Of a DNA stretch of 64,000 bases, positions 2,191-43,546 are shown one piece after another. The number at the start of each line of letters is the position of its first letter. Position 1 is the first letter of the stretch. The stretch covers positions 34,714 through 98,713 of the forward strand of contig NZ_LMFZ01000004.1 of NCBI RefSeq assembly GCF_001427305.1. Direction: 5' to 3'. A program made the translations under genes and the position numbers. The DNA comes from Duganella sp. Root1480D1. GTDB lineage: Bacteria; Pseudomonadota; Gammaproteobacteria; Burkholderiales; Burkholderiaceae_D. The notes below the pieces were generated by a model. The model was not told the origin of the DNA, made no database searches, and saw only the letters and a list, made by a program, of their open reading frames with translations.

Positions 2191-3549
2191 ATGTTTCCAA
2201 CCCCGAAAGCCCAAGACACAGCAAAAACCCTCCTGGCCTGGCTCCACCGAGGCTTTGATGCGACGACCGGCTGGGTAACGCACCTGTCGTGGTGGAAGTT
2301 CTTCCTGTTTGCTGCGCTCTCCATGATTGCAGCGTCGATCTTGCAGGACGAGCTGTTCTCGCCTTCCCGCGAGGAAGAGATGGTGATCCGCTCCCATAAG
2401 CGCACAAAATCGGGCAACGCCGACCCAAATATCACGATTGACGATAGCGGCATCCACTTCAACCCGCGTGCTGGCAAGATCAAGAAACAAGCCAGCGCTG
2501 AGGCGAGCATCGACGAAGCCACTGACGCGACTGAAGCTTCAGAAGCCGCTGCTGCCGAGGCGGCAGCTCCCGCCATGCCAGCCGAGCCTGCCGCTCCCGC
2601 CATGCCGGCGCCCCCGGCCCCGCCGGCACCGAAAGCAAACCGCGCGAAACCTGCAGCGCCAGCCGCCCCGGCGGCACCAATGCCTGGCGAGGAAGTCCAT
2701 ATTGAGCTGCCTCCGCAAATTGGCGAGGAGCTGTCCAACGCACTGGAGCAAGCGGTGGACAGCGCAGCCGAAGAAAAAGTCTCGCGCTATCACAAGCAGG
2801 CTTCGACTTGGTTCACCAGTTTCATCACCCTTCTTTTGCTAGCACTTTTCGCGATGAAGGCACTGGTTGGCGGCAAGAAGAAGGCAGAAGCCGAAGCCCA
2901 GGTGGCCAACGCCGCGGCTGAACGTGAATCCATGCAGCGCCAACTAAGCGAGGCCAAGATGCAAATGATGCAGGCCCAGGTCGAACCGCACTTCCTGTTC
3001 AATACCCTGGCCTCCGTGGAGCACCTGATCGAAACCGATCCGCCGCGCGCCTCGGCCATGCAGCGCAGCCTGATCAAATACCTGCGAGCCGTACTGCCGC
3101 AAATGCGCGAAAACAAGCTGACCAGCACGCTCGGCAGCGAGTCCGATATGGTGGTCGCTTACCTGGCCCTGTTGAAGATGCGCATGGAAGAGCGCCTCAC
3201 CGTCGACTTCGACGTGCCGGAAGGCCTGCGCACCGCCGCCTTCCCGCCGATGATGCTGCAGTCCATGGTTGAAAACGCGATCAAGCACGGCCTGGAGGGC
3301 AAACCGGAAGGGGGCTACCTGAAAGTCCGCGCTGAAGTGGCACACAGCAAACTGCGCGTCGCCGTGACTGACGATGGCCTGGGTTTTGGCGCCAAGCCAA
3401 GCACCGGTACCGGCCTGGGCCTGACCAATATCCGCGAACGCCTGAAGCTGCTCCATGGCGACCAGGCATCACTGAAAATCGAGCCCAACCAGCCAAGCGG
3501 CGTGATCGCGATTATCGAGGTGCCATACCAGTTGGCACGCTCGGAATAA
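2191..3549 (+). CDS. LytS/AlgZ-type sensor histidine kinase with Ala/Pro-rich linker
   Basis: A 452-residue membrane kinase of the His_kinase (LytS/YehU) type. A first hydrophobic segment is near residues 35-50. It is followed by a long, acidic then Ala/Pro-rich low-complexity stretch (about 100-175), probably periplasmic, and a second membrane segment near 210-228. The phospho-accepting box VEPHFLFNTL places the histidine at residue 267. Asn of MVENAIKHGLEG and the glycine-rich GLGLTNIRERL mark the ATP-binding domain at the C-terminus. The start ATG has AGAAAG upstream. It faces away from the rRNA operon and is followed 64 bp later by a LytTR regulator, its likely partner. The stimulus is unknown; the extended A/P linker is not typical of the family. 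Confidence 0.9.
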   Translation: MFPTPKAQDTAKTLLAWLHRGFDATTGWVTHLSWWKFFLFAALSMIAASILQDELFSPSREEEMVIRSHKRTKSGNADPNITIDDSGIHFNPRAGKIKKQASAEASIDEATDATEASEAAAAEAAAPAMPAEPAAPAMPAPPAPPAPKANRAKPAAPAAPAAPMPGEEVHIELPPQIGEELSNALEQAVDSAAEEKVSRYHKQASTWFTSFITLLLLALFAMKALVGGKKKAEAEAQVANAAAERESMQRQLSEAKMQMMQAQVEPHFLFNTLASVEHLIETDPPRASAMQRSLIKYLRAVLPQMRENKLTSTLGSESDMVVAYLALLKMRMEERLTVDFDVPEGLRTAAFPPMMLQSMVENAIKHGLEGKPEGGYLKVRAEVAHSKLRVAVTDDGLGFGAKPSTGTGLGLTNIRERLKLLHGDQASLKIEPNQPSGVIAIIEVPYQLARSE

Positions 3550-3613
3550 GCGATTGCCTTGTGCGGCGATCCATTGAATAATTGATACTTCTTATTTCCT
3601 AATATTGAGCACT

Positions 3614-4381
3614 ATGCCCACAGCAATTATTGCCGACGATGAGAGACTGATGCGCGACCAGCTGCGCATGCGGCTGGAACAAGTATGGCCCGAACTTGAG
3701 ATCCTTGGCGAAGCCAAGAACGGCGACGAAGCAGTTGACCTGGTCGACGAACTGAAGCCTGATTTCACCTTCCTCGACATCCGCATGCCCGGCAAGACCG
3801 GCATGGAAGCAGCCGCTGAAATCGGCAACAAGAGCAATGTGGTTTTCGTCACCGCGTATGATGCCTATGCAGTGGAAGCATTCGAGCGCGGCGCGGTCGA
3901 CTACGTGTTGAAACCGCCGGAGCCTGAGCGCCTGAAAGTCACCGTTGAGCGCCTGAAAGGCCGCCTGTCCTCGCCGGCAGCCAGCGCTGCGCAAGGCGCC
4001 GACATGGCTGCCATCCTGAACCAGCTTGCGGAAAAGATCGCCTCGCCGAAGCCCAAATACCTGCAATGGATCCAGGCCAGCATCGGGTCTGACCTGCGCA
4101 TGATTCCAGTCGAGGAAATCCTGTTCTTCCGCTCGGACGAGAAATACACCTGCGTGCAAACCGACAAGTTCGAGGCACTGATCCGCAAGCCGGTGCGCGA
4201 CCTGGCCGAGGAACTGGACCCGTCGCTGTTCTGGCAGATCCACCGCGCGACCCTGGTCAATGTGAACGCCATCGAAGGCGTAACGCGCGACATCCGCGGG
4301 CGCCACCTTGTTATGATCAAAGGCCGCCCAGACAAGCTGGAAGTCAGCCGCTCATTCCTCCATCTGTTCAAGCAGATGTGA
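3614..4381 (+). CDS. LytTR-family response regulator
   Basis: A 255-residue two-domain regulator. The receiver (1-120) has the acidic pair in IIADDERL, phospho-acceptor Asp55 in FLDIRMPG and Lys in YVLKPPEP. A LytTR DNA-binding domain fills about 150-255 (FFRSDEKYTCVQT, FWQIHRATLVNVNAI). An upstream TTG at 3605 could add three residues, but I chose ATG 3614 because the receiver begins directly there; neither start has a strong ribosome site. It pairs with the LytS-type kinase just upstream. Targets are unknown. Confidence 0.9.
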   Translation: MPTAIIADDERLMRDQLRMRLEQVWPELEILGEAKNGDEAVDLVDELKPDFTFLDIRMPGKTGMEAAAEIGNKSNVVFVTAYDAYAVEAFERGAVDYVLKPPEPERLKVTVERLKGRLSSPAASAAQGADMAAILNQLAEKIASPKPKYLQWIQASIGSDLRMIPVEEILFFRSDEKYTCVQTDKFEALIRKPVRDLAEELDPSLFWQIHRATLVNVNAIEGVTRDIRGRHLVMIKGRPDKLEVSRSFLHLFKQM

Positions 4382-32154: not shown

Positions 32155-34134
32155 ATGGAATATCGCAGGGAAATTGATGGTCTGCGGGCGGTTGCCGTCC
32201 TGCCGGTAATCCTGTTTCACGCAGGGTTCCAGTTCTTTGGCGGCGGCTTCGTTGGCGTCGACATCTTCTTCGTCATCAGCGGCTACCTGATCACGACGAT
32301 CCTGATCCACGAACTGGAAGCCGGCCAGTTCTCTATCCTCAATTTCTACGAAAGGCGCGCACGCCGCATCCTGCCCGCGCTATTCCTGCTGCTGCTTGCC
32401 TGCCTGCCCTTCGCTTGGTTCTGGCTGGTGCCCGACGACTTGAAAAGCTTTTCGCAAAGCCTGGTGGCGGTTACCGCCTTCGCGTCCAATATCCTGTTCT
32501 GGCAGCAGAGCGATTACTTTGACTCCTCGGCTGAATTCAAGCCGCTGCTCCACACCTGGAGCCTGGCGGTGGAAGAACAGTTTTACCTGCTGTTCCCCTT
32601 GTTCCTGATGCTGTTCTGGCGTCGTGACCAGCGCATGCTGCTGGCGGTGCTGGTGGGCACGGCACTCGCCAGCCTCGGTGCTGCACAATGGGGCGTCGCC
32701 AAAGACCCCACTGCCACCTTCTTCCTGCTGCCCACCCGCGGCTGGGAACTGGCCATCGGCGCGCTGTGCGCCTATTACATGTCACGCCCCGGTGCTGGCC
32801 AGCATGCGCAACGCACGCGCGAACTTGCCGGCCTGGCCGGACTGGGTCTGATCGGCATCAGCATTTTCGCCTTCAGCAAATACACGCCCTTCCCCAGCGT
32901 TTATGCGCTGCTGCCCACCGTCGGCGCGGCCCTGATCATCCTGTTCGCGGCCCCATCGACCACGGTCGGCAAGATCCTGGGCAGCCGGCTGATGGTCGGG
33001 GTCGGCCTGATCAGCTACAGCGCCTACCTGTGGCACCAGCCCATCCTGGCGTTCGCACGCCACCGCAGCATGGAAGGTCCGGGCCCGCTGTTGATGGCCG
33101 GCCTGGTCGCCCTCACCATGGTGCTGGCCTACCTTAGCTGGCAGTTTGTCGAGAAGCCCTTCCGCAACCGCAGCAAGTTCGGCCGCCCGCTAGTCTTTGC
33201 CTTTGCCATCGCCGGTTCGCTGCTGTTCTTCGGCATCGGCATGGCCGGCCATAAGACCGACGGCATGCGAAGCGTGAAGACCACGCCGCAGCAGCAGGAA
33301 GTCCTGCGCACAGTCGCCGCCAGCCCCAAGCGGGCTGCCTGCCATACCAAAGGACTGGACTACCGCAAGCCGCAAGATGCCTGCGCCTTCAATGGCCCCG
33401 ATGGAGAATGGGCAGTGATCGGCGACAGCCATGCCATCGAACTGGCCTACGCGCTGGGAGTGGAATTGCAAGGCAGCCGCCAGGGCGTGCGCCAGTTCAC
33501 CTTCAGCGGCTGCACCCCGTCCTACCAGCGTGCAGACACCAACCCGGGCTGCAGCGAATGGACGCGCGAAGCGGTCGACTTCATTGCCAGCGACCCACGC
33601 ATCAAGGAAGTGGTGGTCAGCTATCGCCTCCACAGCGCCTTGTTCGGCGACCACGAAGGCGTTTACCCGCGCCTGCCCGACGAGTTTACCGATGCCAGGC
33701 GCAGCGCGATCTGGGCTTCCTACAAGACGATCTTGAACCATTTTGTGAGCGCCGGAAAACACGTGACTGTAGTGCTGCAGGCGCCGGAGCTGCCGCGCCA
33801 GGTGGATAAGCTGATACGCCAGGCCGACGATCCGCGCAGCGTGGATGGCGTCACCACGGACTGGTGGCATCGCCGCAGCGCTTATGTGGAGCAGCGCCTG
33901 GGCGAACTGCCAGCCGGCGTGCGCATCCTGCGGCCGGAATCGCTGTTCTGCAATGGTGCGCACTGCTATGCCGTCAAAGACGCCAAAGCCCTGTATTTCG
34001 ATGACGACCACATGTCGATCTACGGCGCCGGCCTTGTCGCGCATGACCTGGTGGGCGGGCAGCCGCGCGCCTGCGAAACCGGCTGCTCGCTAGAATCGGC
34101 AGCATGGACGAGCACACCGAAAGAGAGTCACTGA
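32155..34134 (+). CDS. Membrane O-acyltransferase with SGNH domain (OafA/YrhL-like)
   Basis: A 659-residue protein. The N-terminal acyltransferase-3 domain begins YRREIDGLRAVAVLPVILFH (substrate His at the end) and has about ten membrane segments to residue 365. A periplasmic SGNH domain follows: block I VIGDSHAIEL near residue 420 and the DxxH motif in DDDHMS near the C-terminus. Such proteins add acetyl or other acyl groups to O-antigen, exopolysaccharide or peptidoglycan. The substrate cannot be told. It overlaps the next gene by 31 nt. Confidence 0.9.
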   Translation: MEYRREIDGLRAVAVLPVILFHAGFQFFGGGFVGVDIFFVISGYLITTILIHELEAGQFSILNFYERRARRILPALFLLLLACLPFAWFWLVPDDLKSFSQSLVAVTAFASNILFWQQSDYFDSSAEFKPLLHTWSLAVEEQFYLLFPLFLMLFWRRDQRMLLAVLVGTALASLGAAQWGVAKDPTATFFLLPTRGWELAIGALCAYYMSRPGAGQHAQRTRELAGLAGLGLIGISIFAFSKYTPFPSVYALLPTVGAALIILFAAPSTTVGKILGSRLMVGVGLISYSAYLWHQPILAFARHRSMEGPGPLLMAGLVALTMVLAYLSWQFVEKPFRNRSKFGRPLVFAFAIAGSLLFFGIGMAGHKTDGMRSVKTTPQQQEVLRTVAASPKRAACHTKGLDYRKPQDACAFNGPDGEWAVIGDSHAIELAYALGVELQGSRQGVRQFTFSGCTPSYQRADTNPGCSEWTREAVDFIASDPRIKEVVVSYRLHSALFGDHEGVYPRLPDEFTDARRSAIWASYKTILNHFVSAGKHVTVVLQAPELPRQVDKLIRQADDPRSVDGVTTDWWHRRSAYVEQRLGELPAGVRILRPESLFCNGAHCYAVKDAKALYFDDDHMSIYGAGLVAHDLVGGQPRACETGCSLESAAWTSTPKESH

Positions 34135-34568: not shown

Positions 34569-34647
34569 GCAACCGTTCGTCACGCAGTTCGACCACTCGC
34601 CATATCGCTGGAACGACATCTGATTGGATACGGTATGCTGCCAGCCC

Positions 34648-35679
34648 ATGAAAAGAGAACATTATTATTGGCTGCTGCAAGGGCTCGGCTGGAGCGGCGT
34701 CGCCCTGTTTGTCGCCGTCGTCAATAAGCTCCACGTCACCTACTTTCCGCTTGCCGCCTGGTGCGGGCTGAGCGGTCTGGCCTTGACCGCGCCGTGGCGA
34801 CGCCTGTGCAAATTCCGCTTAAAGCGCGGCAAGCGGCTTAGCTGGCAGGCTGCTGCCCTTTCGGCAGCCGTCATGGGGCTGGTGCAGACAGTCAGTAACA
34901 CTGCGGTCGACTATTATGTATCCGGCGCCAACTGGTATGTGGGCAGCCCCGTATGGTTCATGATGCTGCAGTCATTCTGGATCGGCGTCATGCTGGCCTG
35001 GAATGTCTGCTATATGGCCGCCCTGTCCCTGCGCCGCAACCAGCGCCTGGAAGCGGAGGCGCTGTTGCTGGAAGCAGAGACCTTGCGCCTTGAAGTCCTG
35101 GCCAAAGATGCGGAACTGCGAGCATTGCAGGCCCAGGTCAACCCGCATTTTTTCTTCAATAGCCTGAATAGCGTGCGCGCCCTGCTCTACCAGGATACCG
35201 ATTCTGCCGCCCATATGATCGATCAGTTGGCGACCCTGATGCGCTACACCCTGGTTTCCAGCTACAACGATTGCGTGCCGCTGGAAGAAGAACTCGATGC
35301 CGTGCGCGCCTATCTGGCGATCGAGAAGATTCGCTTCGAGGAACGGCTGCAATTTGCCATCGACATCGCCCAGGACATGGAATTGATTACCGTCCCGCCG
35401 ATGGCGCTGCAAACGCTGGTGGAGAACGCGGTGAAGTACGGCGTGGAACAATCGTCCGCCGGCAGCGAAATCAGTATTCGCGCCCAGTGCGCCGATGGCA
35501 CCGCCATCATCGAAGTGGCCAACCTCGGCAACATCCAGGCGGGCCGCACGTCGACTGGCGTTGGCGTCAGCAATGCCCGTAAGCGCCTGGCGCTATCCAA
35601 GGGCGAGCATGCCACATTGGACCTTGCAGAAAACGATGGCTGGGTTTGCGCCACCATGCGCTTCCCGATCCCCGCATAA
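34648..35679 (+). CDS. LytS-type sensor histidine kinase, tandem copy 1
   Basis: A 343-residue kinase with four predicted membrane segments in the first 135 residues and a short cytoplasmic linker. The His_kinase box QVNPHFFFNSLNS has the phospho-acceptor His167, followed by an ATPase domain (LVENAVKYGVEQ as N-box). ATG 34648 was preferred over TTG 34624 because the first hydrophobic segment starts there. First of four paralogues (34648, 35693, 36742, 38533) that alternate with two LytTR regulators. No extracellular sensor domain, so the signal is probably membrane-linked. Confidence 0.9.
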   Translation: MKREHYYWLLQGLGWSGVALFVAVVNKLHVTYFPLAAWCGLSGLALTAPWRRLCKFRLKRGKRLSWQAAALSAAVMGLVQTVSNTAVDYYVSGANWYVGSPVWFMMLQSFWIGVMLAWNVCYMAALSLRRNQRLEAEALLLEAETLRLEVLAKDAELRALQAQVNPHFFFNSLNSVRALLYQDTDSAAHMIDQLATLMRYTLVSSYNDCVPLEEELDAVRAYLAIEKIRFEERLQFAIDIAQDMELITVPPMALQTLVENAVKYGVEQSSAGSEISIRAQCADGTAIIEVANLGNIQAGRTSTGVGVSNARKRLALSKGEHATLDLAENDGWVCATMRFPIPA

Positions 35680-35692
35680 AGGAATCGACTAC

Positions 35693-36730
35693 ATGGACCG
35701 ACACCGCTCACTGATCCCCCGGCCAGGCTGGTTTCCCACACTGCAAATCCTCGGCTGGGGAACGCTGTTCCTGCTCCTTATCCTCGGCAACGGCCGCTAT
35801 ACGAATGCCACCTTACTGGCTTCGTTCGTGCTGGTATTTGGCCACGGCTGGCTGTTGACCAGCGTGTGGCACCGCTTCTTCAAGTCCAGGCGCTGGAATC
35901 GCCACGGCAACGACTGGCGCCTGCCCGCCGTGGCATTGCTGCTGCTGGCCCCCTTGCAAACCGCGGTCTCGGAACTGGCCACTTATCTTTTTGCGCCGAA
36001 CCTGGCAGCCGCCGGGCGTTCGGAACGCATTCCAATGGAACTGGCCTTCTGGTGCATTGTCATGCTGGGCTGGACCATCTGCTACATGGCGGCTGTTGCG
36101 TTGCGCCGCGCCACACGGCTGGAGGCAGAAGCACTTCGGCTGGAGGTGCTGGCAAAGGACGCTGAACTGCGCGCCCTGCAATCGCAGGTCAATCCGCACT
36201 TTTTCTTCAATAGCCTGAACAGCGTGCGGGCCCTGATGTATGAAAACGTCGACAACGCAGCAGTCATGGTCGACCAGCTGGCGACCCTGATGCGCTACAC
36301 GCTGATGTCCACCTTCAGCGACTGCGTGCCGCTGCGGCAGGAATTGGATGCAGTTCGCGCCTATCTTGGCATTGAAAAAATACGCTTCGAGGAGCGCTTG
36401 CGTGCGCATTTTGAAGTGGACGCAGGGCTGGAGCACGTCACGATCCCGCCGATGACTTTGCAGACCCTGGTTGAAAATGCAGTCAAATACGGCGTCGAGC
36501 GGCGCACCGAAGGCAGCGAGATCCGCATCATTGCGCGCCAGACGGATGAGCATGCGGTGATCGAAGTCGCCAACCGGGGCGCGCTGCTCGCCAATCCCGG
36601 CTCGACCCGGGTCGGGATTGCCAATGCACGCAAACGGCTGGAGCTTGCAAAAGGTGGGCAGTCAAGCCTTGACTTGAGCGAAGCTGATGGCTGGGTACGT
36701 GCAACCCTGCGCTTCCCGCTCGCCGCCTGA
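35693..36730 (+). CDS. LytS-type sensor histidine kinase, tandem copy 2
   Basis: A 345-residue paralogue of copy 1: four predicted membrane segments, SQVNPHFFFNSLNSVRALM with His169, LVENAVKYGVERR as N-box. ATG 35693 with AAAGGA upstream, 13 bp after copy 1, clearly the same transcript. The membrane half is diverged from copy 1 while the kinase half is nearly the same, suggesting different inputs and a shared output. Confidence 0.9.
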   Translation: MDRHRSLIPRPGWFPTLQILGWGTLFLLLILGNGRYTNATLLASFVLVFGHGWLLTSVWHRFFKSRRWNRHGNDWRLPAVALLLLAPLQTAVSELATYLFAPNLAAAGRSERIPMELAFWCIVMLGWTICYMAAVALRRATRLEAEALRLEVLAKDAELRALQSQVNPHFFFNSLNSVRALMYENVDNAAVMVDQLATLMRYTLMSTFSDCVPLRQELDAVRAYLGIEKIRFEERLRAHFEVDAGLEHVTIPPMTLQTLVENAVKYGVERRTEGSEIRIIARQTDEHAVIEVANRGALLANPGSTRVGIANARKRLELAKGGQSSLDLSEADGWVRATLRFPLAA

Positions 36731-36741
36731 TACTGATAGAT

Positions 36742-37776
36742 ATGGAAAAACCGCAAACACCGCTGCTGGCACGAATCAACTGGTACTGGGTCCTGCAAGG
36801 ACTTGGCTGGGGCGCTGTCACCGCCTTCGTCATGCTGGTCAACGGCCCATTCCTTGAGAAGCCTGGTGCGGTCCTTACCTGCATCCTGGACGGCGTCAGC
36901 GGCCTGTTGCTGACAGACTTATGGCGCCGTTACATGAAACTGCGCGACTGGAACAGGCGCAAGGCGGACTTGCGCCAGGTCGCGGTAGCGATCTTCATCC
37001 TCGGGCCATTGCAACTGGCGAGTGTCACCATCATCGCCCGCACCCTGGTCGGCATCGCCGACGGCGGCAGCTGGCTGCCGATGCTATTCCTGTTCTGGTC
37101 CGGCATCATGGCGGCATGGCAGGTCTCCTATATGGCCGTTACGGCCCTGCGCCGCGCCAACCGCTTCGAGGCGGAAGCGCTTCGTCTCGACGTGCTTGCC
37201 AAGGAAGCCGAACTGAAGGCCTTGCAGGCACAGGTTAACCCGCATTTCTTCTTCAATAGCCTGAACAGCGTGCGTGCGCTGATCTTCGAGAACCAGCAGT
37301 CGGCCGCGCAGATGATCGACCAGCTCGCGACGCTGATGCGCTATACGCTCGCTTCCAGCTATGCCGATAGCGTGCCCTTGAAAGAAGAGATGGAAGCCGT
37401 GCGGTCTTATCTCGCCATCGAAAAGATCCGCTTCGAACAACGCTTGAATGTCGCCATCGACATTGCCGGCGGCATGGACGCTGTGACGATCCCGCCGATG
37501 GCCGTGCAGACGCTGGTCGAAAACGCGGTGAAATACGGCGTCGAGCAAAGCAGCGTCGGAACGGAAATCCGCATCAGTGCCAGCCATGCCAATGGCCACG
37601 CATCGATCGAAGTGGCCAATCGCGGCGCACTGGCCACGCTTGGCAATTCGACGCGCGTCGGCCTGGCCAACGCTCGCAAGCGACTGCTGCATGCAAAGGG
37701 CGGCGACGCCAGGCTTGACCTGGTGGAGCGCGACGGCTGGGTGCGCGCCACCCTGACTTTCCCCTTGTCCTTATGA
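36742..37776 (+). CDS. LytS-type sensor histidine kinase, tandem copy 3
   Basis: A 344-residue paralogue: RINWYWVLQGLGWGAVTAF opens the first membrane segment and is close to the start of copy 4. His168 lies in QVNPHFFFNSLNS. It begins 11 bp after copy 2 and overlaps the following regulator by 4 nt (ATGA), so it is the most direct partner of the degenerate regulator at 37773. Confidence 0.9.
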   Translation: MEKPQTPLLARINWYWVLQGLGWGAVTAFVMLVNGPFLEKPGAVLTCILDGVSGLLLTDLWRRYMKLRDWNRRKADLRQVAVAIFILGPLQLASVTIIARTLVGIADGGSWLPMLFLFWSGIMAAWQVSYMAVTALRRANRFEAEALRLDVLAKEAELKALQAQVNPHFFFNSLNSVRALIFENQQSAAQMIDQLATLMRYTLASSYADSVPLKEEMEAVRSYLAIEKIRFEQRLNVAIDIAGGMDAVTIPPMAVQTLVENAVKYGVEQSSVGTEIRISASHANGHASIEVANRGALATLGNSTRVGLANARKRLLHAKGGDARLDLVERDGWVRATLTFPLSL

Positions 37777-38420
37777 TACGCGTGCTGCTCGTCGACGATG
37801 AGCGCCTGGCCCGCAAGGAGCTGCGCCGCTTGCTGGCCGACCATGCGCATTGTCAAATTGTTGGCGAAGCCGTCGATGTTGCCGATGGCATCGCGCAGAC
37901 CTTGGCATTGGCGCCGGACTTGATCCTGCTGAACGTGCAAATGCCGGGCGGCAGCGGCTTCGACCTGCTCGACGAGCTGGACGAGGTACCGGAGATCATC
38001 TTCACGACGGGCCATGGTCCCTGCCCTGCCGACTACCTGCTGAAGCCAGTTCACCCGCAACGCCTTGCTGCCGCACTGGAGCGCGCCGCCGTCCGCGCCG
38101 GGATGGGCAGGAAGCCGCGCAAGCTGTTCATCCGCGAGGGACAGCGCTGCTGGTTCGTGCGCCTGACCGATATCCGCCTGTTTGAAGCGGAAGGCCAGCA
38201 TACGCGCGCCTATTTCGACGGCGGCTCGCCGCTGATTGCCCGCCCATTGCTGCAGTTGGAGAAAATGCTCGACCCGCAGCAATTCTTCCGCGCCAGCAGC
38301 CGCCATCTCGTCAACCTTGCCGACGTGGATCGCATCGTGCAGACAGCCGGCGGCTCACTCGCGCTCAACGTGGCAGGCGTAGCGGTGGAAATCATGGGCA
38401 CCACTCATCACGCAATTTGA
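37773..38420 (+). CDS. LytTR regulator with degenerate receiver (Asp to Asn)
   Basis: A 215-residue LytTR protein. Its receiver aligns without gaps with that of the regulator at 39567 through residue 60, but the phospho-acceptor position 54 is Asn (ILLNVQMPGG against LLLDVQMPGG). A stretch of 8 residues between beta-4 and beta-5 is also missing (TTGHGPCPADYLLKP against TTAFDQYALQ...ALDYLMKP). The LytTR DNA-binding domain (residues 115-215; LFEAEGQHTRAYFDG, HLVNLADVDRIVQ) appears intact. It is therefore unlikely to be switched by normal phosphorylation and may bind DNA constitutively or act through dimerisation. Coupled to kinase copy 3. Confidence 0.9.
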   Translation: MIRVLLVDDERLARKELRRLLADHAHCQIVGEAVDVADGIAQTLALAPDLILLNVQMPGGSGFDLLDELDEVPEIIFTTGHGPCPADYLLKPVHPQRLAAALERAAVRAGMGRKPRKLFIREGQRCWFVRLTDIRLFEAEGQHTRAYFDGGSPLIARPLLQLEKMLDPQQFFRASSRHLVNLADVDRIVQTAGGSLALNVAGVAVEIMGTTHHAI

Positions 38421-38532
38421 CCGCTCGTCAAATTTTCAATTCAGGCCTCGCCACGACGCCGATAAGGTGATGTACGAAGAACCAGAATGGATGTATGCTC
38501 GCATCGACCAATTCCTGCAATAAGCACTCACT

Positions 38533-39570
38533 ATGACTGAAACCCGGCGCCCGCTGTTTGCAAGGCTTGACTGGTACTGGATCATGCAAGGCCTTGGCTG
38601 GACCCTGATTTTCCTGGTGGTCGTCCTGACCTACAGCCGTTACATCGCCTCGCCGGGCGTAGTGGCCACCTGTGCCTGGACCGCGGCCAGCGGGGCCCTG
38701 CTATCGGACCTGTGGCACCGCTTTATCAAAGCCCGCCGCTGGAATAACGGTGCGATCAAGTGGCGCATGTTCTTAGGCCCGGTATTGCTGCTTGGGCCAC
38801 TGCAAGCATTGAGCGTGGCAGCGGCGATCTACATCCTGCAGGGGCAATTCGACAGCAGCTTCGCGTGGGCGCCCGCATCATCCGCGCTCTGGAGCTGCGT
38901 CTTCCTTGGATGGCAGCTTGCCTACATGGTGGCGCTGGCGATCCGCCGCGCCAACCAGTTCGAAGCGACCGCCCTACGCATGGAGGTACAGGCCAAGGAC
39001 TCCGAATTGCGCGCGCTGCAGGCCCAGGTCAATCCGCACTTCTTCTTCAATAGCCTGAACAGCATCCGTGCCCTGGTGTATGAAGAACCTGATTCGGCTT
39101 CGCAAATGATCGACCAGTTGGCAAGCCTGATGCGCTATGCCTTGCAGACCGGCCAGTTGCATATGGTGCCGCTGCAAAAAGAACTGGAAGCGGTAGAAGC
39201 TTACCTGGCCATCGAGAAGATCCGCTTCGAAGAGCGGCTGCGCACCAGCATCACCATCGAGCCGGGGCTGGAACAGGTCATGATCCCGCCCATGTCGCTG
39301 CAAACGCTGGTGGAAAACGCCGTCAAATACGGCGTGGAGATGAGCACCACCGGCAGCGACATCCTGATCACTGCCCGCCGCGACGGCGGCAACGCCCTGA
39401 TCGAGATTGCCAACGCGGGCGCCATCCGCTCCTTCGGCAACTCCACCAAGGTTGGCCTCACCAACACCCGCAAGCGCCTGGCCCTGTCGATTGGCGAGGA
39501 AGCCAGCCTGCAATTGAGCGAAAACAGCGGCTGGGTACGCGCCATCCTGCAATTCCCGGTGACGGCATGA
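38533..39570 (+). CDS. LytS-type sensor histidine kinase, tandem copy 4
   Basis: A 345-residue paralogue: four predicted membrane segments, QVNPHFFFNSLNSIRALV with His169, LVENAVKYGVEMS N-box. It lies 112 bp after the degenerate regulator and overlaps the last regulator by 4 nt. Together with 39567 it forms a complete, conventional kinase-regulator pair, so the preceding kinase/pseudo-regulator unit looks like a duplicate of this pair. Confidence 0.9.
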   Translation: MTETRRPLFARLDWYWIMQGLGWTLIFLVVVLTYSRYIASPGVVATCAWTAASGALLSDLWHRFIKARRWNNGAIKWRMFLGPVLLLGPLQALSVAAAIYILQGQFDSSFAWAPASSALWSCVFLGWQLAYMVALAIRRANQFEATALRMEVQAKDSELRALQAQVNPHFFFNSLNSIRALVYEEPDSASQMIDQLASLMRYALQTGQLHMVPLQKELEAVEAYLAIEKIRFEERLRTSITIEPGLEQVMIPPMSLQTLVENAVKYGVEMSTTGSDILITARRDGGNALIEIANAGAIRSFGNSTKVGLTNTRKRLALSIGEEASLQLSENSGWVRAILQFPVTA

Positions 39571-40268
39571 TGCGCGTGCTGATCGTCGACGACGAACGCC
39601 TGGCGCGCGCCGAGCTGCGGCGCATGCTGGCCTCCCATCCGGGAGTCGCCATTGTTGGAGAAGCGATCAATGCCGCCGAAGCGGCACTGCAGGTCGAGGC
39701 GCTGCAACCGGACTTGCTGCTGCTGGACGTGCAGATGCCCGGCGGCAGCGGCTTCGACCTGCTGGCCGCACTGGACGACGCGCCGGAAGTGATTTTCACC
39801 ACCGCCTTCGACCAGTACGCCCTGCAAGCCTTCGAAGCCAGTGCGCTCGACTACCTGATGAAACCCATCGAACCGCAGCGCCTGGCCGCAGCACTGGAGC
39901 GCGCCGCGGCGCGCCTTGGCATCGCGCCCACACCCAGCGCGGCGCCGCGCAAACTCTTCATCCGCGACGGAGAGCGCTGCTGGTTCGTGCGGCTGGAAGA
40001 TATTCGCCTGTTTGAATCGGAAGGCAATTACACCCGCCTCTACTTCGACGGCGCGGCGCCGCTTCTGGCGCGCTCCCTGCTGCAACTGGAACAGCGCCTC
40101 GACCCGCAGCAATTCTTCCGCGCCAACCGCCGCCACATCGTCAACCTGGCTGCCGTGAAGTGCATCGAAAACGGAGAAGGAGGCGCCGTGGCCTTGCGCA
40201 TCGAAGACATGACGGTGGAAGTCTCGCGCCGCCGGGCCTCAGCCCTCAAGCAATTGCAGGAATTCTAA
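39567..40268 (+). CDS. LytTR response regulator, complete receiver
   Basis: A 233-residue regulator with intact Asp54, acidic pair IVDDERL and Lys in DYLMKPIEP, followed by a LytTR domain (about 130-233; LFESEGNYTRLYFDG, RANRRHIVNLAAV). Coupled by 4 nt to kinase copy 4; a bidirectional terminator follows. Target genes unknown. Confidence 0.92.
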   Translation: MMRVLIVDDERLARAELRRMLASHPGVAIVGEAINAAEAALQVEALQPDLLLLDVQMPGGSGFDLLAALDDAPEVIFTTAFDQYALQAFEASALDYLMKPIEPQRLAAALERAAARLGIAPTPSAAPRKLFIRDGERCWFVRLEDIRLFESEGNYTRLYFDGAAPLLARSLLQLEQRLDPQQFFRANRRHIVNLAAVKCIENGEGGAVALRIEDMTVEVSRRRASALKQLQEF

Positions 40269-40323: not shown

Positions 40324-41124
40324 TCAGGCCTTGCGGCGACGTCCATACGCCAACGCAATGGCGCCGATGCCCAGCAATGCCAGTGTACCTGGCAGCGGTA
40401 CACTGGCCGGGTCACTCACTTGCTCCGCAAATGCGGCAACGCCACCGCGAACATTGAAAGCATAACGGCCATCGAGGGCGACGTTGCTGCCTTTGATCAG
40501 CGCGTTCTTGCCCGAATCCAGCATCTGCTTCGCAGCACCCGAACCGGCGAACTCGAAGTCGGCAGCCGTGCCCTGCATATGGAAGCCCGCACGCGTCTTA
40601 TCCGACGAACTGGACTTGTCCCACTGGATCGAACCGTAGTTGTAGTAGAAGTCGAAGTTGTTGGCACCGGTATCGGAACGATCGACCAGCACCAGTTGGA
40701 AGGTGTTCTTCTTGTCGTTCATCTGCGGGAAGTAGCCAACATCGGACCACGTCACCGCGAAGGCGTTATGGCCCGCGAACTTGGTGCTGCCATAGCCAAT
40801 GGTGCCGCCGCCATTACGGATGTCGACGTCGCCAAAGAATGGCGCCAGGAAGGAACGTCCGTAGGAATTGCTATTGAACGCCTCTGGCGAGAAGGTGCCC
40901 ATGCCGGAGCCAAAGGAGACATTGCCGTTGGTGTTGATAAACAAACCGCTATAAACCGAGCCATTCAGTCCCAGCTTCATATTGTTGGTCAGGCCGACCT
41001 TGGTGGAACCGTCATCGACAGCAGGAACCAGGGTCTGGGAAAAACCGGACAGGATGGGGGAAGCGTGCGCAGCGGCGCTAAAAGCCAGCATGGCGGCGAG
41101 CAACGGCTTGGTCAGTTTGGACAC
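40324..41124 (-). CDS. Secreted nidogen-like protein with PEP-CTERM-type tail
   Basis: A 266-residue exported protein. The start is GTG 41124 with GAAGAG upstream, giving the signal peptide SKLTKPLLAAMLAFSAAAHA. The body resembles a NIDO domain (GLFINTNGNVSFGSGMG, FLAPFFGDVDIR, NFDFYYNYGSIQW). The C-terminus is a sorting signal: VPLPGTLALLGIGAIALAYG followed by RRRKA, in place of the usual VPEP motif. Proteins like this are processed by an exosortase and go to the surface or exopolysaccharide; no exosortase is in the window. Flanked by two nearly identical terminators. Confidence 0.85.
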   Translation of the reverse strand: MSKLTKPLLAAMLAFSAAAHASPILSGFSQTLVPAVDDGSTKVGLTNNMKLGLNGSVYSGLFINTNGNVSFGSGMGTFSPEAFNSNSYGRSFLAPFFGDVDIRNGGGTIGYGSTKFAGHNAFAVTWSDVGYFPQMNDKKNTFQLVLVDRSDTGANNFDFYYNYGSIQWDKSSSSDKTRAGFHMQGTAADFEFAGSGAAKQMLDSGKNALIKGSNVALDGRYAFNVRGGVAAFAEQVSDPASVPLPGTLALLGIGAIALAYGRRRKA

Positions 41125-41194
41125 AGTATTCTCTTCTTGGCAATAAGAACTGCAATTATACAAACTATATTGATTATTAGTAAATATAGGGCGC

Positions 41195-41225
41195 AAAAAA
41201 AACCCGCTCGGACTTGAGCGGGTTT
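41195..41225. terminator. Terminator after clpA
   Basis: Stem CCCGCTC/GAGCGGG (41203-41209 and 41216-41222) with T8 on the minus strand. It has the same stem sequence as the terminator at 40275. Confidence 0.9.
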
Positions 41226-41245
41226 TGGAGCGGCGGCGCAGCCGC

Positions 41246-43546
41246 TTATTCGACTTCGACGGTTTCCGGCGGCGGCGTAGGCGCCGCATCCGGTTCCGGG
41301 AACTCCAGCTTGATCGCTTCGGCCTCGTCCAGGTCCACGATCACGCGGCCACCGGATACCAGTTTGCCGAACAGCAGTTCGTCGGCCAGCGCCTTGCGGA
41401 TCAGGTCCTGGATCAGGCGCGACATCGGACGCGCACCCATCAAAGGATCGAAGCCCTTCTTCGCCAGGAACTTGCGCAGTTTCTCGCTGAAGATCGCTTC
41501 CACCTTCTTCTCGTGCAGCTGCTCTTCCAGCTGCATCAGGAACTTGTCGACCACGCGCAGGATGATTTCCTCGTCCAGCGCACGGAAACTGATGGTCGCA
41601 TCCAGGCGGTTGCGGAACTCCGGCGTGAACATGCGCTTGATGTCCGCCATCTCGTCGCCCGCTTCCTTGCTGTCGGTGAAACCGATCGAACGCTTCTGCA
41701 GGCTTTCCGCACCCGCGTTGGTGGTCATGATGATGATCACGTTGCGGAAGTCGGCCTTGCGGCCGTTGTTGTCGGTCAGCGTGCCGTGGTCCATCACCTG
41801 CAGCAGGATATTGAAGATATCCGGATGCGCCTTCTCGATCTCGTCCAGCAGCAGCACGGCGTGCGGCTTCTTGGTGATCGCCTCGGTCAGCAGGCCGCCC
41901 TGGTCGTAACCCACGTAGCCAGGAGGCGCGCCAATCAGGCGGCTCACCGCATGGCGTTCCATGTACTCCGACATGTCGAAGCGGATCAGCTCAATGCCCA
42001 GGATGAAGGCGAGCTGCTTGGCCACCTCGGTCTTGCCGACGCCGGTCGGACCGGAGAACAGGAAGGACCCGATAGGCTTGTCCTGCTTGCCCAGGCCGGC
42101 GCGCGACATCTTGATCGCGGAAGCCAGCGCCTCGATCGCAGGATCCTGGCCGAACACCACGTTGCGCAGGTCGCGGTCGATGGTGGCCAGCTTGCTGCGG
42201 TCGTCCTGGTTGACGGTCTGCGGCGGAATGCGCGCAATCTTGGAAATGATTTCCTCGATCTCGGTCTTGCCGATAGTTTTCTTCTGCTTCGACTTCGGCA
42301 GGATGCGCTGTGCAGCGCCGGCCTCGTCGATCACGTCGATGGCCTTGTCCGGCAGGTGGCGGTCATTGATGAAGCGCGCCGCCAGTTCGGCCGCAGTCGA
42401 CAGCGCCGACGACGAATACTTCACGCCATGGTGTTCCTCGAAACGCGATTTCAGGCCGCGCAGGATCTGCACAGTCTGTTCCACGGTCGGCTCGTTGACG
42501 TCGACCTTCTGGAAGCGGCGGGACAGCGCATGGTCTTTCTCGAACACCCCACGGAATTCCGTGAAGGTGGTCGCGCCGATGCACTTCAACTGGCCGTTGG
42601 CCAGGGCCGGTTTCAGCAAGTTGGACGCGTCCAGCGTTCCGCCCGACGCCGAGCCGGCGCCGATAATGGTGTGGATCTCGTCGATGAACAGGATGCCGTT
42701 CGGGTTGTCTTTCAGTTGCTTGAGCACAGCCTTCAGGCGCTGTTCGAAGTCGCCGCGGTACTTGGTACCGGCCAGCAGCGCGCCCATGTCGAGCGAATAG
42801 ACCACGGCGTTCGACAGCACTTCCGGCACGTCGCCCTGGGTGATGCGATAAGCCAGGCCTTCCGCGATGGCGGTCTTGCCCACGCCGGCTTCGCCCACCA
42901 GCAGCGGGTTGTTCTTGCGGCGACGGCACAGCACCTGGATCACGCGATCCACTTCGTCTTCGCGACCGATCAGCGGGTCGATCTTGCCCTCGGCGGCGGA
43001 CTTGTTCAGGTTCTGGGTGAACTGGTCCAGCGGCGATTCCTTGGCCTGGCCTTCCGGCACGGTGCCCTCTTCCACGCCCTCGGATGCCTTGCCGGAATCC
43101 ATTTGCTGGTCCTTGCGCACGCCGTGCGAGATGAAGTTGACCACGTCGAGGCGGGTTACGCCCTGCTGGTGCAGGTAGTAAACAGCGTGCGAGTCTTTTT
43201 CACCGAAGATGGCCACCAGCACGTTGGCGCCGGTCACTTCCTTCTTGCCGTTGGAAGCCGACTGCACGTGCATGATCGCGCGCTGGATCACGCGCTGGAA
43301 GCCTAGCGTTGGCTGGGTGTCCACTTCGCCGGTGCCAGGCACGGTCGGTGTGTTATCGCCGATAAAGTTCGTCAGCGTTTTACGCAGGTCCTCAATATTC
43401 ACTGCGCAGGCGCGCAGCACCTCGGCTGCCGATGGATTGTCAAGCAGCGCCAGCAGCAAGTGCTCCACGGTGATGAACTCGTGCCGTGCTTGCCGCGCTT
43501 CGACAAACGCCATATGCAAACTTACTTCCAATTCCTGCGCAATCAT
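41246..43546 (-). CDS. clpA: ATP-dependent Clp protease ATP-binding subunit ClpA
   Basis: A 766-residue Hsp100 unfoldase that feeds ClpP. The N-domain (1-145, [19 protein letters not shown]) binds ClpS. Walker A1 is [15 protein letters not shown], Walker A2 [14 protein letters not shown], and the ClpP-binding loop region follows D2. ATG 43546 has GGAGG upstream and overlaps the clpS stop as ATGA. Confidence 0.96.

Follow-up and report, generated by a model that had tools for sequence, protein, structure and literature searches.

Introduction

Many-to-one kinases (PMC12471899), LytTR systems (PMC5552118) and pseudo-receivers (PMC12632262) are each already known. Here we describe a gene array that would combine the three. 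It lies in a window of 64,000 nucleotides (the whole stretch of DNA analysed; contig NZ_LMFZ01000004.1 of assembly GCF_001427305.1, positions 34,714 to 98,713 of the forward strand) from Duganella sp. Root1480D1, and consists of four LytS-type membrane histidine kinases (K1–K4) and two LytTR-family regulators (R1 and R2) in the order K1-K2-K3-R1-K4-R2, at positions 34648–40268 on the plus strand of the window.

The BtsS/BtsR (YehU/YehT) system of Escherichia coli likewise consists of a LytS-type kinase and a LytTR regulator, and the putative operators of the array, with their two ACCRYT-type repeats at a distance of about 21 bp, resemble the YehT/BtsR site in a published YehT oligonucleotide (PMC4847170). 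BtsR (PRK11697) is the best NCBIfam match of R2, but R2, with 163 bits, stays below the 246-bit cut-off of that family, as does R1 with 82.7 bits. In addition, extra sensor domains are a feature of BtsS-type kinases (PMC5552118), whereas a Pfam search recognised no sensor domain in K1–K4. For AlgZ/AlgR of Pseudomonas aeruginosa, the array half-site corresponds to the AlgR core CCGTTCGTC and to the rhlI site CCGTTCATC, although AlgR sites are not necessarily direct repeats, unlike the array operators (PMC4064291). As described, AlgZ/AlgR has one kinase, whereas the array has up to four.

Several differing sensors feed one receiver in KinA–KinE with Spo0F and in LuxN and LuxP with LuxU (PMC12471899), as we propose for the array; the array kinases, however, are paralogues encoded in tandem, in an array that also carries a LytTR regulator and a pseudo-regulator. 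CmrRST of Clostridioides difficile has a pseudo-receiver regulator in an autoregulated operon together with a normal kinase and a normal regulator, and a role as binding competitor has been hypothesised for this pseudo-receiver (PMC12632262). CmrRST belongs to the OmpR family and has one kinase, in contrast with the LytTR family and up to four kinases of the array, and CmrT is considered possibly constitutively active (PMC12632262), whereas R1 has lost DNA-contact residues. A 2025 review calls the switching of bacterial pseudo-receivers a mystery and treats binding competitors as a hypothesis (PMC12632262). In our literature searches, which left out most subscription papers, no paper joined LytTR with a pseudo-receiver and none joined LytTR, histidine kinase and Massilia; among the papers listed for multi-kinase/single-regulator duplication and for paralogous LytTR sensor kinases, none describes this arrangement. 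The tandem form proposed here, with a retained pseudo-regulator, appears to be a new version of many-to-one signalling, which is itself known.

The kinase–regulator array

The order and spacings reported in an earlier note on this DNA were confirmed by the open reading frame coordinates. K1 (34648–35679), K2 (35693–36730) and K3 (36742–37776) are separated by gaps of 13 and 11 bp, K3 overlaps R1 (37773–38420) by 4 bp, a gap of 112 bp separates R1 from K4 (38533–39570), and K4 overlaps R2 (39567–40268) by 4 bp, all on the plus strand. The Pfam family His_kinase (PF06580) was matched by all four kinases (E values of 2.3e-28, 6.9e-27, 5.9e-29 and 4e-29 for K1, K2, K3 and K4 respectively), and HATPase_c by K3 alone, below the family cut-off. 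All four kinases have kept the His box NPHFFFN and the ATP-site motif VENAVKYG, and each of them is taken to phosphorylate R2. The motifs quoted for the kinases in the earlier note recur in all four, except that K3 has KIRFEQRL in place of KIRFEERL.

The earlier note also described the kinase halves as nearly the same and the membrane halves as different. The contrast is real but the wording overstated, with pairwise identities among K1–K4 of 61–69% for the catalytic halves and 32–41% for the membrane halves. Single-copy orthologues from seven other genomes showed the same contrast (68–93% against 34–62%), indicating that such a contrast is usual in kinases of this family; a special diversification of the membrane halves was rejected on this ground.

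Both R1 and R2 matched Response_reg and LytTR. R2 is an intact LytTR response regulator with Asp54 and both domains in full (PF00072 and PF04397, the latter over positions 2–96 of 98), whereas the LytTR match of R1 covers positions 2–76 of 98 and falls short of a full domain. The genome contains 15 His_kinase and 13 LytTR matches in total, of which 11 and 11 lie outside the array; since each of the 11 non-array kinases has a LytTR match nearby, the surplus of kinases over regulators is confined to the array.

R1, a predicted pseudo-regulator

Although R1 matches Response_reg, it has no phosphate-accepting aspartate and so falls among the aspartate-less pseudo-receivers: position 54 is Asn in all five R1 proteins and Asp in all 69 other aligned regulators, paralogues included. 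The same change in AlgR, D54N, abolishes phosphorylation in vitro (PMC4064291). All five R1 proteins also have an 8-residue deletion across helix alpha4, and residues that are invariant in the 69 others have been replaced, N154, Y155 and the C-terminal SRRR in five of five and R188 in four of five. D8, D9, T79 and K99 are retained, and the aromatic residue of the Y-T coupling, three residues before the conserved Lys, is kept in three of the five. Judged by its sequence, R1 is a pseudo-regulator in each of the five genomes that carry it. Its C-terminus is read from operator 2 (see below), which suggests a protein truncated from the outset, at a duplication junction.

R1 is under purifying selection. 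The omega value was 0.183 for the five R1 genes, compared with 0.090 for R2, 0.119, 0.136, 0.121 and 0.138 for K1, K2, K3 and K4, and 0.057 for PrpR, and fixing omega of R1 at 1 made the fit worse by 108 log units. Variation within R1 was lowest in the beta1-alpha1 segment, where 4 of 22 columns are variable, compared with 111 of 214 overall (Fisher p 0.0007, one of ten segments tried); for comparison, R2 has 5 variable columns in this segment and 45 overall. Helix alpha1 is the kinase-docking face of a receiver, and R1 is probably a docking competitor.

Array variants and kinase history in related genomes

The R1 alignment was searched against 74 genomes of the genus and had a match at E 1e-50 or better in 62 of them. 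One of these, G010, holds only a paralogous pair, so that the locus is present in 61 of the 74 genomes, the window genome included, and loci were fetched from the 60 other genomes for synteny. A scan of named genomes with the same alignment gave, among the matches listed, distant regulators only.

More than one kinase was found at the locus in only seven of the 61 genomes, and the PrpR tree unites these seven in a single clade (support 99). The six-gene order is common to the window genome (G000) and G084 only, and in G084 an in-frame deletion has removed the His box of K1. The other five arrays read K1-K2-K3-R1-R2 (G009), K1-K3-R1-R2 (G002), K3-R1-hydrolase-K4-R2 (G006), K1-K3-hydrolase-K4-R2 (G069, without R1) and K1 remnant-K2-K3-47-codon frame with the R1 tail-hydrolase-K4-R2 (G097). 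A broken array in close relatives, which the earlier note had named as a point that would speak against a multi-signal device, was thus found in part, in that gene content varies among the seven genomes; R2 is kept in all seven and R1 in five. The K1 of G084 (L195, 267 residues) retains its membrane part and ATP site and is a possible partner-only kinase.

The best evidence that the kinases may be interchangeable is given by the arrays of G069 and G097, in which three intact kinases stand alongside R2 alone, together with the chimeric kinases described below. These two arrays, and the missing aspartate in five of five R1 proteins, lend indirect support to the earlier proposal that several kinases converge on one functional regulator.

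The array kinases fall together with those of G017 and G081 in one clade of the kinase tree (Shimodaira–Hasegawa-like approximate likelihood-ratio test 88), in which K4 branches first, and in the full-length tree K1, K2, K3 and K4 each formed one group (99–100). The trees indicate that the four kinases are old paralogues, and what can be seen of recent change consists of losses and two K1/K2 chimeras, which does not fit the description of the array in the earlier note as an expanding tandem family. The K1 genes of G002 and G069 move to K2 in the tree of the catalytic half (98), and sliding identity switches near the start of the kinase half in both, which marks them as chimeras of a K1 sensor and a K2 kinase. 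The same tree gave no sign of concerted evolution of the kinase halves as a general process: K3 and K4 each stay together (99 each), and only these two K1 genes change place; the K2 rows cohere weakly there (15).

G017 (L050) and G081 (L198) have an operator-kinase-regulator locus without the hydrolase. The membrane half of their kinases groups with K1 (99) and the catalytic half with K3 (96); these kinases may perhaps be the product of another fusion. For descent of their regulators from R1 or R2, the approximately unbiased test gave p values of 0.51 and 0.45 and favoured neither origin.

The ancestral operon, its putative operators and the hydrolase scar

The array is derived from a conserved operon consisting of an operator, an alpha/beta hydrolase gene, a kinase and a LytTR regulator. 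A hydrolase gene (Abhydrolase_1), with an N-terminus that is signal-peptide-like as judged by eye, precedes the kinase in 54 of the 60 fetched loci, mostly shortly after prpR, and K4 adjoins the hydrolase in the relatives that keep it. When 145 family genomes were searched with the hydrolase, 34 had a match at 1e-20 or better. We examined 30 hydrolase loci: the 11 with at least 53% identity, six of them in three other genera, all adjoin a kinase and a regulator, and the 19 with at most 40% identity have neither adjacent. In G018 (L078), all that remains of the hydrolase is a fragment with a stop codon, beside a regulator matched over positions 15–200 of 216, in a locus without a detected kinase.

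In the window genome, the 3′ end of this gene is still recognisable in the 112-bp gap as a 56-bp scar (38468–38523, plus strand) that shares 93% identity with the corresponding end of the hydrolase gene in G097 (E 2e-20); G084, G009 and G002 retain the same hydrolase 3′ end. Moreover, a 46-bp operator segment at the end of R1 is 91% identical to the segment preceding the G097 hydrolase gene. Taken together, the scar and the operator segment indicate that the hydrolase was deleted and that the promoter which drove it now faces K4-R2. In view of the scar, the reading of the gap as a plain spacer was rejected, and no relocated hydrolase was found in the genome, the best match elsewhere having 31% identity at E 3.5e-5. 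With this deletion the neighbouring output has gone from the window lineage, and the genome's strict exact operators all belong to the array itself.

In the consensus of the loci, half-sites RCCRYTCRYC are directly repeated at a distance of 20 or 21 bp. With at most two mismatches allowed, such a repeat heads the operon in every one of the 60 fetched loci; it is exact in 47 of them, and a TANNNT hexamer starts 32 or 33 bases after the repeat in 50 occurrences among 62 rows; the operator counts exclude paralogous loci (G...b) and G010. Among the hydrolase loci, those on the opposite strand (L232 and L234–L237) lie outside the operator scan made in the sense of the gene. No exact match was detected elsewhere in the 0.94 Mb of loci, and none in a single Markov-shuffled control of equal size. 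A strict pattern, with ACC at both half-sites, was searched genome-wide with a 10-bp spacer and had two exact matches in the 6.6-Mb genome, both inside the array.

The first of these, operator 1 (ACCGTTCGTC-N10-ACCACTCGCC, 34572–34601, plus strand), lies upstream of K1 and is followed after 32–33 bases by TATGCT (34634–34639, plus strand), the presumed -10 element of promoter P1. As this element ends 8 bases before the ATG of K1 at 34648, the transcript of K1 would have almost no leader. A similar picture is seen in G017 and G081, and the hydrolase-first operons carry an AAGGAGG-like ribosome site. Operator 2 (ACCACTCATC-N10-ACCGCTCGTC, 38400–38429, plus strand) encodes the last residues of R1 and its stop codon, and TAAGGT (38463–38468, plus strand), at an offset of 33, is the presumed -10 element of promoter P2; in the hydrolase-bearing relatives G069 and G097 this position has TAAAGT. 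The half-sites of both putative operators are of the AlgR type (CCGTTCGTC or close variants).

A site with one mismatch was seen about 90 bp before a putative ATP-binding cassette transporter operon (assigned by eye), beside the nearest paralogous kinase–regulator pair (L084 584–5134, in the window's own genome on C5, about 192.6–197.1 kb). A similar repeat occurs at the same place in G006 (L081).

Proposed mechanism and alternatives

From synteny, trees and scars, the ancestral array can be reconstructed as operator 1-K1-K2-K3-R1-operator 2-hydrolase-K4-R2, which would have arisen when, in one clade, a duplicate of the kinase–regulator part came to lie ahead of the hydrolase operator. R2, as the sole intact regulator, would be phosphorylated by all of K1–K4 and would bind the paired half-sites, whose position suggests that P1 and P2 are activated. 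P1 would then drive the kinases and R1, and P2, formerly the promoter of the hydrolase, would now drive K4-R2, thereby closing an autoregulatory loop. R1 may bind the kinases without accepting phosphate, and may in this way limit, buffer or damp their access to R2. We consider it rather likely that interchangeable kinases converge on R2, that R2 autoregulates the array and that R1 acts as a docking competitor. That selection has made R1 a kinase-docking decoy, tuning interchangeable kinases that share one regulator within an autoregulatory loop without its ancestral output gene, is put forward tentatively, as possible rather than probable.

Several observations weigh against this mechanism. 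The conserved beta1-alpha1 segment of R1 also contains the active-site Asp residues, so that its conservation need not come from docking alone, and omega of R1 is twice that of R2. R1 has gone from two of the seven array genomes, K3 running into the R1 tail in G069 and tblastn finding no R1 in G097, and is therefore dispensable there. As for the operators, the consensus was built from the same loci in which it was counted and was relaxed once, from A to R in its first base, before matches were counted, so that it is the Markov control and the absence of matches elsewhere that carry weight. At up to two mismatches genome-wide, a reversed-pattern control gave 4 matches against 5, and thus only exact matches count; for the window alone, two matches with as many as three mismatches allowed are nothing unusual (17 of 100 shuffles). 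The case for the putative operators rests on exactness, position and conservation.

R1 might instead be a decaying duplicate without a role, born truncated at the hydrolase-operator junction and surviving because too little time has passed. Its loss from G069 and its reduction to a 47-codon frame in G097 would fit such decay, as would the SRRR missing in five of five and an evolution faster than that of R2. We nevertheless regard decay as unlikely, because the five R1 frames are all open despite synonymous distances of ~0.5 or more, because the low omega and the poor fit of omega 1 concern branches that all follow the loss of the aspartate, and because variation is uneven along R1 and lowest at beta1-alpha1. 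A partnership in which R1 acts with R2, through mixed dimers or joint operator occupancy that alters R2 output, as WhiI does with BldM, appears improbable. Co-transcription from P1 is likely and the LytTR-b segment of R1 is fairly conserved (variable in 13 of 35 columns; uncorrected p 0.04), but helix alpha4, part of the usual receiver dimer face, is deleted in R1, and the otherwise invariant N154, Y155, SRRR and R188 have been replaced as described above.

The remaining alternative is that the extra kinases serve distant regulators of their own or are insulated from R2, the array being a remnant of gene order. Cross-talk is conceivable, as R1 and R2 share 50% and 57% identity, respectively, with the nearest paralogous regulator (C5, about 197 kb). 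However, the 11 other regulators each stand beside their own kinase, three-kinase arrays exist with R2 alone, and the K1/K2 chimeras have been kept intact. We think such an arrangement improbable, and the pairing of each kinase with a distinct distant regulator, which the earlier note had offered as grounds for giving up convergence, is not favoured.

Neighbouring genes

Elsewhere in the window, at 2953–4378, there is a further kinase (His_kinase match 2953–3198) with a LytTR match (4094–4378). Just downstream of the array, on the minus strand (40324–41289), lies a gene whose NIDO-domain product bears a PEP-CTERM sorting signal. An acyltransferase-SGNH gene (32155–34134) lies between prpR and a DUF6328 gene; among the fetched loci and the window it occurs only in G000, G009 and G084.

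Significance

The relatives with R1, without R1, without K2, without K4 and with K1/K2 chimeras form a natural series of deletions and domain swaps, which suits tests of pseudo-regulator function and of many-to-one signalling. In the window lineage, the locus represents a sensory array that has outlived the neighbouring gene with which it evolved.

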